A DNA stretch of 64,000 bases, taken from the NCBI RefSeq assembly GCF_000194135.1, contig NC_015318.1, forward strand, positions 572,501 to 636,500. Reading direction: 5' to 3'. Of the stretch, positions 13,718 to 16,522 are shown in pieces; positions within the stretch are counted from its first letter, which is position 1, and each line of letters begins with the position of its first letter. The notes below the pieces were generated by a model that did not search any database, was not told the DNA's origin, and saw nothing but the letters and a program-made list of their open reading frames with translations. The DNA is from Hippea maritima DSM 10411 (GTDB taxonomy: Bacteria > Campylobacterota_A > Desulfurellia > Desulfurellales > Hippeaceae). Both the position numbers and the translations under genes were made by a program.

Positions 13718-13746
13718 CCCTTCTGTGTAATTCATACACGGAAGGG
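13718..13746 (+). terminator. Terminator-like hairpin after acs
   Basis: A 12-bp stem (CCCTTCTGTGTA pairing with TACACGGAAGGG, one G-U) with a 5-base loop lies 15 bases after the acs stop. The following bases (CTTTCCTTG) are only partly T-rich, so termination efficiency is uncertain. Confidence 0.6.
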
Positions 13747-13752
13747 CTTTCC

Positions 13753-13780
13753 TTGACTTTATCTGATAAATGTAATAAAA
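13753..13780 (+). promoter_or_regulatory. Candidate promoter of the riboswitch-DUF364-ABC operon
   Basis: TTGACT, 16 bases, ATAAAA lies immediately upstream of the riboswitch aptamer, which would begin a few bases after the predicted transcription start. Confidence 0.4.
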
Positions 13781-13787
13781 GTTTGTG

Positions 13788-13885
13788 ATCTCCGAGCGGT
13801 TAAGCCTACGGGTTTATGCCTATGGTTTTTCCGCCGATAGGGTGTAGGCGGAAACGCTTGCGCCTCCCGTGTTTGGAAAGGAGGT
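13788..13885 (+). promoter_or_regulatory. Molybdenum/tungsten cofactor (Moco/Tuco) riboswitch
   Basis: Structured leader RNA before a molybdate/tungstate-like transporter operon. P1 pairs ATCTCC (13788-13793) with GGAGGT (13880-13885). Inside it, GCG/CGC and GCCTAC/GTAGGC form a long stem with a purine-rich internal loop (GTTAA opposite GGAAA), capped by CCTAT/ATAGG. The pieces CCGAG near the 5' side and GCCTCCCG near the 3' side look like the conserved Moco-motif segments as I remember them. The element joining the long stem to GCCTCCC is only a few bases, so the P3 stem is absent or tiny. That resembles the variant proposed to sense the tungsten cofactor. Downstream genes support the call. 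A covariance-model search was not possible. Confidence 0.75.
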
Positions 13886-13940
13886 AATTTAGCTATTTTA
13901 TTGAAGTTTTTCCAATTTTTATAAAATCAAAGGGGGATAT

Positions 13941-14699
13941 ATGGGTATTTTAGATGATGCTCTGCTTAAGTTTAGGGATATTGTGCAGAAAAACGGTCTT
14001 TTGGATAAAAGAATTCAGATAAAAATGAGGCCTTTAAAACCCTATGAGGCTATAGGTAAACCAACAAGGGACGATTATCCACTTCTGAAGGGCAAGGAGG
14101 TTTTAGTTGAGGCCACATTTTTAGAAGCCAAAGGGCAGGCATTTACCGATGAGCCCAGTGATTTTGAGGGTTTCATGTGTGATGTTCTAAAGCTGCCTTT
14201 AAAAACAAACAGAAATAGGGCTGTTGTTATTGCAAGTATAAACGCCGTTTTGCGTTATTTAAATATGACATGGGGAACTGTACATTGTAAAGATAGCGAA
14301 CCAGAGGGGTGTGCTAATGAGATGATGGAGCGATTTTTTAGACGTTGGGGCGAGAATGTGACATTGGGACTTGTGGGGCTACAGCCTGCTTTAGCCAGCT
14401 CAGCTATAAAAGTGTTTGGTAAAGGTAATGTAAAGATAGCCGATTTGGATGAGGATAATATAGGTAAAGATTTTGAGGGCGTTAAAATACTTGATGGTAA
14501 AATTTACTCAAATGAAATTGTTGCCAATAGTTTTTTGGCTTTGATTACAGGCTCGAGTGTTGTAAATGGAACGATAGATGAACTTTTAAATGTTTCAAGA
14601 ATGGATAATAAGAATAGGATAGTTATATTTTATGGAACTACTATAGCTGGAGTTGCATCTTTGATGAATTTAAACAGGTTATGCTTTAGGTCTCATTGA
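13941..14699 (+). CDS. DUF4213/DUF364 Rossmann-like protein (putative heavy-metal chelation)
   Basis: 252-residue cytoplasmic protein of the DUF364 family. The N-terminal part (about residues 1-90) is the DUF4213 enolase-N-like domain. The C-terminal Rossmann-like part follows, with the family signatures INAVLRYLNMTWGTVHCKD, GLVGLQPALASSAIKVFG, ADLDEDNIG and VNGTIDELL. The biochemical role is not established. The family was named for a suspected metal- or cofactor-chelating site. Here it is the first gene behind a Moco-type riboswitch and overlaps the ABC ATPase gene by four bases, so a role in molybdenum or tungsten handling is a reasonable inference. The ribosome-binding site is AAGGGGG. 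Confidence 0.8.
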   Translation: MGILDDALLKFRDIVQKNGLLDKRIQIKMRPLKPYEAIGKPTRDDYPLLKGKEVLVEATFLEAKGQAFTDEPSDFEGFMCDVLKLPLKTNRNRAVVIASINAVLRYLNMTWGTVHCKDSEPEGCANEMMERFFRRWGENVTLGLVGLQPALASSAIKVFGKGNVKIADLDEDNIGKDFEGVKILDGKIYSNEIVANSFLALITGSSVVNGTIDELLNVSRMDNKNRIVIFYGTTIAGVASLMNLNRLCFRSH

Positions 14700-15754
14700 T
14701 GATAAAGCTAAACTTTTTTAAAGCATTCGAGAAGCTAAATATAAAAGTTGAGTTGAATTTTGATGGCTTAAGGAATGTGATATTTGGACCATCGGGCTCG
14801 GGCAAATCATCTATTTTAAAGATGATAGCTGGCTTTTATAATCCTGATAATGGATTTATAAGGTTTAAAAATGAGTGTTTTTTCAATAGCTTAAAAGGAA
14901 TAAAAATAGCAACGCATAAAAGGAATGTAGGCTACCTGCCCCAAGAATGGACACTCTTTCCTCACCTTACTATCAAGGAGAACATACTATATCCGATCAA
15001 GGCAAGAAAAATGGAATTTGATAGGGCTCTTTTTGAATTCTTTGTTAACAAAGCGGAACTGAGCCAATACCTTGATGCGTTTCCAGAGGAAATTTCGGGA
15101 GGGCAAAAACAGAGAGTAGCCCTTATTAGAGCTTTAATGGCAAAACCTAAGCTGTTGCTTTTGGATGAGCCTTTTAGTGCCTTGGATAGATCTATTGCAG
15201 AAAAACTCAGGTATTTCCTTGTAAAAATGGTAGAGGAACTTGAGATACCTACAATTTTTGTTAGTCATAATCTTGAAGAGGCTTTCTCTTTTGCAGAAAA
15301 TATGGCAATTATAAAAAATGGATTGATTTTGGAGGCCTCAAAAAAAGATGAACTTTTTAGAAAACCTATTTATGTAGAAAGCGCAGAGTCGTTGGGTTTT
15401 AAGAATGTCTTTAAAATAGATGGGAAAACGGCTAATTCTGTTAATATAAAGGGTTTTTGGTTTGAGGTTGAGAAGATTGAGGGTGACTACTGCTGCATAA
15501 GACCAGAGGATATTTTAGTTCTAAGGGATAATGCGGATAATTCAGATAGAGAAAATGTACTGAAAGGTAAGATTTCATCCATTGAGTGTGTTGGCACTCA
15601 TACAGTTTTGGAATTTAATGCGGGGGGGTTGATTTTGTTTATAAATATACCCAACCATGCTGTTTATAAAATGGGGCTAAAGAAGGGAAAAAATATAACA
15701 ATATCGCTAAAAAGAAATAGCTTAACCACCTGCAAAACATTTAGAGGTTTTTAG
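14696..15754 (+). CDS. ABC transporter ATP-binding protein, molybdate/tungstate type (ModC-like)
   Basis: ATPase of an oxyanion importer, 352 residues. It has Walker A GPSGSGKSS (about residue 32), Q-loop YLPQEW, signature SGGQKQRVALIRAL, Walker B LLLDEPFSALD and the H-loop His in FVSHN. A C-terminal extension of about 120 residues resembles the TOBE/Mop regulatory domain of ModC (CIRPEDILVL, VGTHTVLEF, AVYKMGLKKG). It is coupled to the DUF364 gene upstream and abuts the permease gene downstream. The upstream riboswitch favours Mo or W over sulfate as substrate. Confidence 0.85.
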   Translation: MMIKLNFFKAFEKLNIKVELNFDGLRNVIFGPSGSGKSSILKMIAGFYNPDNGFIRFKNECFFNSLKGIKIATHKRNVGYLPQEWTLFPHLTIKENILYPIKARKMEFDRALFEFFVNKAELSQYLDAFPEEISGGQKQRVALIRALMAKPKLLLLDEPFSALDRSIAEKLRYFLVKMVEELEIPTIFVSHNLEEAFSFAENMAIIKNGLILEASKKDELFRKPIYVESAESLGFKNVFKIDGKTANSVNIKGFWFEVEKIEGDYCCIRPEDILVLRDNADNSDRENVLKGKISSIECVGTHTVLEFNAGGLILFINIPNHAVYKMGLKKGKNITISLKRNSLTTCKTFRGF

Positions 15755-16522
15755 ATGAAACTTACGAAGATAGCACTTTTACCTTTGAGTATTTTGCTTA
15801 TTTTTATGGGTATACTTCTGATTTATGGTTTTGAAGGGGTGTCCCCTGGTGATTTAGTAGGGTTGCTTGGGGATAAGGAATTTTTATCAGCGGTGGTTTT
15901 TGGACTTGAAACCTCTCTTTTTTCTGTTTTGCTTTCGGCCGTCTTTGGTATACCTGCTGGTTTTTATCTGGCAAGAAACAATAGCAGTTTTTCTCGTTTT
16001 GCCGATATTTTATTTGACATTCCACTTGTAATTCCGCCTTTAGTTGTAGGTGCTCTACTTTTAAATCTCTTTAATTGTCCGTTTGTAGAGAGGTTTTATT
16101 CCTTTGTTTTTACATTTTGGGGTGCTGCTATAGCCCAGTTTTTTATCTCTTTTCCGTTTACCGTTAAATCTTCAAAGACAGCATTCGAACTTATTTCTCC
16201 TGTTTATGAAAGAATAGCTATGACGCTTGGCGCCTCACCCATGAAATCATTTTTTGATACCACATTTAGGTTATCTTTTTATGGTATATTTTCAGGTCTT
16301 ATTCTGAGTTGGCTTAGAAGTTTAGGAGAGTTTGGTGCGACTCTTCTTGTTGGGGGTGGAATAGCCTATAAGACAGAGAATATTCCTATAAACATCTATT
16401 TGAAAATAACAGAGGGTAATTTTAGGAGCGGTTTTGCAGCAAGCTTATTGGTTGTAGTTTTAGCTATTGTATGTGTCTTTCTGGTAAAGATGGTGTTCTC
16501 TAAAAAGAGGATTGGGATATAA
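15755..16522 (+). CDS. ABC transporter permease, molybdate/tungstate type (ModB-like)
   Basis: Inner-membrane permease of 255 residues with about six hydrophobic segments. The EAA-loop region (AMTLGASPMKSFFDTTFRLS, about residues 155-174) docks onto the ATPase. The tail LSWLRSLGEFGATLLVGGGI is typical of ModB/CysT/TupB permeases. Its ATG directly follows the ATPase stop codon. No periplasmic binding protein gene is present before or after, so a binding protein encoded elsewhere would have to serve this pair. The end overlaps the convergent K+ channel gene by 23 bases. Confidence 0.85.
   Translation: MKLTKIALLPLSILLIFMGILLIYGFEGVSPGDLVGLLGDKEFLSAVVFGLETSLFSVLLSAVFGIPAGFYLARNNSSFSRFADILFDIPLVIPPLVVGALLLNLFNCPFVERFYSFVFTFWGAAIAQFFISFPFTVKSSKTAFELISPVYERIAMTLGASPMKSFFDTTFRLSFYGIFSGLILSWLRSLGEFGATLLVGGGIAYKTENIPINIYLKITEGNFRSGFAASLLVVVLAIVCVFLVKMVFSKKRIGI

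Follow-up and report, generated by a model that had tools for sequence, protein, structure and literature searches.

The window analysed here, 64,000 nucleotides in length, corresponds to bases 572501-636500 of the complete, single-contig genome of Hippea maritima (1,694,430 bp). On its forward strand, genes encoding a DUF364 protein, a ModC-like ATPase, and a ModB-like permease are tightly packed downstream of a riboswitch, and the following features were recognized:

13718-13746, forward strand: terminator-like hairpin closing the acetyl-CoA synthetase gene that precedes the leader (12 pairs, 6 of them G-C, and a T-rich tail; consensus match only)
13778-13899, forward strand: Moco RNA riboswitch aptamer, P3-less (RF01055 match, covariation)
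13790-13793, forward strand: 5' strand of P1 (CTCC; pairing in 100% of sequences at alignment columns 13-16)
13834-13839, forward strand: CCGATA linker at the P3 site (identical 6 nt in all family members)
13875-13884, forward strand: 3' side of P1, GGAAAGGAGG; in sister operons it is the likely ribosome-binding site directly before ModC (leader comparison)
13932-13936, forward strand: the DUF364 gene's own Shine-Dalgarno, GGGGG, with the ATG at 13941 (from the sequence)
13941-14699, forward strand: 252-aa DUF364 protein belonging to the His-Cys-x7-Cys clade (PF04016 at 29 bits, signature, fold closest to 3npg/3l5o)
14699 (or 14696)-15754, forward strand: ModC/WtpC-like ABC ATPase with TOBE domain (profile matches)
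15755-16522, forward strand: ModB/WtpB-like ABC permease (profile matches)

The hairpin at 13718-13746, located after the acetyl-CoA synthetase gene, indicates that the leader is a separate unit. The Rfam covariance scan that the earlier note had proposed gave a significant match to the Moco riboswitch, RF01055, at 13778-13899, covering the full model (1-135) with 88.2 bits (E 3.6e-20; gathering score 36 bits). This aptamer leaves the P3 positions of the model unfilled, and six nucleotides, CCGATA, lie between P2 and the next stem; the linker in place of P3 measures 4-6 nt in 31 of 31 aligned relatives. Compensatory changes are evident when 31 RF01055 members of the Hippea lineage and other lineages are aligned: 18 of the 28 aptamer pairs changed on both sides, both-side changes reached 138 cells versus 43.5 in shuffles, and the predicted pairs were formed in 94.3% of cells versus at most 54% when slid. 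Both the riboswitch class and the P3-less form, as proposed from the letters at first reading, are borne out by these results. The aptamer shares the full-length covariance match, the conserved junction, the GAAA tetraloop, the missing P3, and the site before a Mo/W transporter with the P3-lacking group of Moco RNAs described previously (Regulski et al. 2008, PMC2408646), while the Hippea maritima operon differs in having DUF364 as its first gene. The ModA-type transporter under this P3-less RNA resembles the Pelobacter exception of the same study. As judged from sequence, the leader is a further instance of a known riboswitch class, with an informative regulon.

The ATG of the ModC-like gene overlaps the DUF364 stop codon, and the ATG of the ModB-like gene abuts the ModC stop; together with the profile matches, this tight packing confirms the riboswitch-led DUF364-ModC-ModB operon described earlier. 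The ModC-like ATPase (14699-15754), which contains two TOBE matches, scored best with TIGR02142 (220 bits, cut-off 285) and reached 216 bits with WtpC, while the ModB-like permease scored 162 bits with TIGR01581 and 153 bits with TIGR02141 (cut-off 183). All of these scores are below the cut-offs, and neither protein reached an NCBIfam equivalog cut-off for molybdate or tungstate. Compared with ModABC and WtpABC transporters, the system shares the TOBE ATPase, the permease, and ModA-like binding proteins, but its genes are divided between two riboswitch units, and its ModB and ModC remain under the equivalog cut-offs.

No ModA-, TupA- or WtpA-like gene was evident among the open reading frames listed around the operon. 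The initial description of a system with no binding protein therefore holds for the operon itself but not for the regulon, since two ModA-like genes are located in trans under a sister riboswitch. The whole genome contains two RF01055 matches (88.2 and 87.5 bits), both P3-less; the second is located at 1309390-1309508, 723 kb from the DUF364 operon, and two tandem ModA-like genes, SBP1 and SBP2, follow directly on its 3' side (chromosome ~1.3095 Mb). With TIGR01256 (cut-off 62.5 bits), SBP2 scored 67.9 bits and SBP1 57.4 bits, and the two proteins form two clades with support of 100/100. RF01055 is also present in 14 of the 15 other family genomes, where the downstream gene set is stable and the gene order variable. 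DUF364-ModC-ModB follows the riboswitch in G002 to G007, and G003 and G004 also possess a separate SBP1-SBP2 unit; SBP1-DUF364-ModC-ModB constitutes a single operon behind the riboswitch in G001; G008 carries three riboswitches, over DUF364 alone, SBP1 alone, and ModC-SBP2-ModB; and in other genera (G009, G010, G011, G013, and G014) the riboswitch leads ModC-SBP(-SBP)-ModB. Because relatives hold the same genes in one operon, SBP1 and SBP2 most likely deliver the oxyanion to the ModBC of the DUF364 operon. Put most simply, ModBC would use binding proteins encoded in trans and subject to the same regulator; the probable cognate ModA protein is present in the genome and unlinked here, and operonic in relatives.

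With a probability of roughly 0.7, these genes represent a two-locus Mo/W uptake regulon under cofactor feedback, with DUF364 acting in the cytosol on the oxyanion after import. The P3-less riboswitch with DUF364-ModC-ModB would be one half of this regulon, and the second riboswitch with the two ModA-like genes the other. When the cofactor is plentiful, the aptamer would fold and expression would be lowered, by analogy with the characterised class. SBP1 and SBP2 would pass molybdate or tungstate to ModBC, as their one-operon counterparts in relatives suggest, and DUF364 would most likely bind or modify the oxyanion imported by ModBC before cofactor assembly, possibly through its conserved His-Cys...Cys...Cys residues.

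Whether the regulon serves molybdenum or tungsten is a matter of competing evidence. Previous work showed that RNAs without P3 track with the use of the tungsten cofactor (Tuco) and that P3 deletion did not change specificity (PMC2408646), so the absence of P3 is a correlation with Tuco only. The earlier note had favoured tungsten-cofactor sensing; its argument from the P3-less form stands as such a correlation, but the evidence is mixed because the Wtp/AOR cluster of the same genome carries no RF01055. This tungsten-type cluster contains WtpA (290 bits, equivalog cut-off 243), WtpB, AOR, a tungsten-type radical-SAM maturase (470 bits, cut-off 380), and MoeA; the second ModB-type permease of the genome adjoins WtpA. 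The whole-genome search found no RF01055 at this cluster or at the second AOR locus. AOR and WtpA are thus encoded in the genome yet lie outside riboswitch control, and the riboswitch-led binding proteins are of the ModA type. Sensing of the tungsten cofactor by the P3-less RNA, with tungstate supplied by the operon, is possible, at odds clearly below even: the Tuco-correlated form of the RNA, the two AOR-type genes of the genome, and the P3-less riboswitches that lead molybdopterin oxidoreductase genes near tRNA-Sec at locus L076 are consistent with it, while the cluster without a riboswitch and binding proteins that score as ModA, which as a type make no distinction between Mo and W (PMC5517513), argue against it, as do the Desulfurella-like relatives (by kinship) G016-G018, which belong to a different family of the order and have AOR but no RF01055.

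A role in the supply of molybdenum, or of both metals, is no less likely. The operon could supply molybdate, for example for polysulfide reductase, with the P3-less RNA sensing Moco or both cofactors and tungstate entering through WtpAB, a reading to which we assign only slightly less than even odds. The ModA-type binding proteins under the riboswitch beside a separate WtpA system agree with it, as does the PsrABC polysulfide reductase encoded by Hippea (PMC5317093), but it conflicts with the P3/Tuco correlation (PMC2408646), and WtpAB has no adjacent ATPase here, hence ModC may serve both systems. In the family, P3-less RNAs on ModA-type genes coexist with WtpA and AOR without riboswitches, which provides a natural test of the proposed sensing of Tuco by P3-less RNAs.

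The WtpA-WtpB pair without an adjacent WtpC was found in Hippea maritima (L230 6462-8175) and in G004, while WtpC is kept in G001 and G008. The best Hippea maritima match to the WtpC-type ATPase of relatives (L241, G000:C1:134623-135231) has an in-frame stop, and the G004 counterpart (L242) is open. The lack of an adjacent WtpC hints that ModC may be shared with WtpB, a reading set aside here because other ABC ATPases exist.

The DUF364 protein placed first in the proposed uptake regulon is divergent. It matches PF04016 weakly (29 bits, cut-off 23) and only with its C-terminal half. In the clade that it makes up with 64 relatives, PF04016 was matched by 65 of 65 members and DUF4213 (PF13938), the N-terminal domain of canonical DUF364, by 0 of 65, both at E<=0.001. 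The canonical Hippea DUF364 paralogue near argF does match PF13938 and lacks the His-Cys...Cys motif in its sequence. The signature of the clade, H115-C116-x7-C124...C248, is almost invariant: H115, C116, C124, and C248 each occur in 99-100% of 79 clade sequences from many phyla, in which KGQAxTD, N101, G146, P149, D168, T203-G204, N209, and G232 are likewise conserved. Clostridium ragsdalei and Solidesulfovibrio alcoholivorans are among the species with a clade member. An AlphaFold model of the protein (pLDDT 92.5) recovered the two-domain fold of 3L5O (Dhaf4260) and 3NPG (PH1506) (PMC2954201); 3npg and 3l5o chains were the only PDB fold matches below E 0.001 (TM 0.47-0.59) and are the sole confident matches of the predicted model. 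A phmmer search of the PDB with the single DUF364 sequence gave no match, and 3npg/3l5o were reached by profile and fold comparison. The Hippea maritima protein thus shares the DUF364 C-terminal domain and the fold with these structures, and the Mo/W transporter neighbourhood is common to its operon and the paper describing them, but identity is 14-17% at a TM of about 0.5-0.6, the DUF4213 N-terminal model is not matched, and the His-Cys-x7-Cys...Cys signature is added. Its membership of a divergent, multi-phylum clade with its own signature, as delineated by sequence comparison, is a new point.

According to the 2010 study, the neighbours of DUF364 include tungstate and molybdate transport genes (PMC2954201). 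In the comparison of DUF364 neighbourhoods that had been recommended for this operon, linkage to ModA and ModB proved recurrent: of 70 non-Hippea loci, 26 have both within 4-5 kb of the clade gene (25 on the same strand), as do 16 of the 33 where both flanks reach 4 kb. A ModA/B-like gene lies within 1.5 kb in 27/70 non-Hippea clade loci versus 0/14 canonical DUF364 loci, all taken from one pattern search and phylogenetically non-independent; ModB is not nearby in 44 of the 70, some owing to short contigs. A riboswitch scan over 78 DUF364 loci, with Rfam confirmation, revealed further links. A P3-less riboswitch precedes ModA-ModB-ModC-DUF364 on a Syntrophomonadaceae contig (L086), in L122 and L141 such a riboswitch is separated by ~300-400 nt from a solitary DUF364 gene downstream, with no same-strand gene called between, and one lies between DUF364 and ModA in L077. 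At L076, a P3-less riboswitch is followed by a Porin_5 protein, ModA, DUF364, ModB, ModC, and FmdE; next to them, two genes for molybdopterin oxidoreductases that resemble formate dehydrogenase in sequence are each led by a P3-less riboswitch of their own, and a tRNA-Sec is encoded nearby.

Coupling of DUF364 to the riboswitch does not appear universal even inside the family, since DUF364 orthologues in sister genera adjoin argF/argG and not riboswitch-Mod genes. DUF364 could be a passenger without Mo/W function, present at the site before the riboswitch-ModCB cassette came. We regard this as unlikely: in the Desulfurella-like G016 a canonical DUF364 and a short clade gene do lie beside ARMT1/RNase HII and argF/argG (L238), and ARMT1 is also found near the Hippea maritima operon, but DUF364 alone has its own riboswitch in G008, and linkage to ModABC is found repeatedly in many phyla, as is the link to a riboswitch in Bacillota. 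The riboswitch-DUF364 loci elsewhere are independent of Hippea and constitute the best evidence against a passenger. As for the role in Mo/W supply first proposed from the gene order, it gains support from comparative genomics, both from the ModA/B linkage of clade loci and from the riboswitch links elsewhere, but as an idea it was anticipated in 2010 (PMC2954201); new relative to that link, at the sequence level, are the clade-specific signature and the neighbourhood counts.

More tentatively, the His-Cys-x7-Cys...Cys DUF364 may act in the cytosol as an enzyme or chaperone not recognised before, preparing molybdate or tungstate imported by ModBC-type transporters for cofactor assembly, in at least two phyla under direct feedback by the finished cofactor; we would place this below even odds. 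Structures of DUF364 proteins have been solved since 2010 without an assigned function, and the upstream riboswitch, the ModABC linkage, and the Cys/His signature turn the annotation of putative heavy-metal chelation into a testable claim of Mo/W handling.

Canonical and clade DUF364 genes were also observed as neighbours, both preceding argF and argG, in Desulfurella-like and sister genera (L238 5782-7142, L073 6737-8220). In L101, L114, and L140, the clade gene stands beside another ABC system, consisting of a binding protein with an EFTDHA-SAYVA-type N-terminus, a permease, and an ATPase, and the clade may therefore work with importers of different kinds.

With regard to expression control, an aptamer segment was previously proposed to act as the ribosome site of E. 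coli moaA (PMC2408646). In four relatives, the GGAAAGGAG of the aptamer is the likely ribosome site directly before ModC. A start codon lies 4-11 nt behind the aptamer's GGAAAGGA[G/A] in 21 of 23 family leaders, which are related to one another (shuffle mean 7.9, 0/1000 as high); it belongs to ModC itself in four leaders and mostly to a short open reading frame of unrelated sequence in the others. Leaders with such a start codon include L003 6391-6600, L037 6664-6740, L043, L046, L048, and L054. The Hippea maritima DUF364 leader is one of the two exceptions among the 23, and upstream open reading frames were rejected as its mechanism. In-silico folding showed that the DUF364 ribosome site is able to pair with aptamer segments and gave no clear OFF switch; because any Shine-Dalgarno can find a pairing partner in the CUCC and CCUCCC of the aptamer, folding was rejected as uninformative for deciding between ON and OFF.

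Finally, outer-membrane genes were also observed behind Moco riboswitches. Porin-like proteins are encoded at L047 5665-6924, L050 6632-7936, L045 1-401, and L076 5924-7153, of which only the L076 protein is a Pfam porin (Porin_5), and those of L047 and L050 match no Pfam family. No literature joining the terms "Moco riboswitch" and "TonB-dependent" was found in a search whose coverage mostly excluded subscription papers, and within that coverage a single paper mentions both DUF364 and molybdenum. In G003 (L038 719-2911), a P3-less Moco riboswitch is located 75 nt upstream of a gene for a TonB-dependent receptor, an arrangement that suggests an outer-membrane step in Mo/W acquisition.
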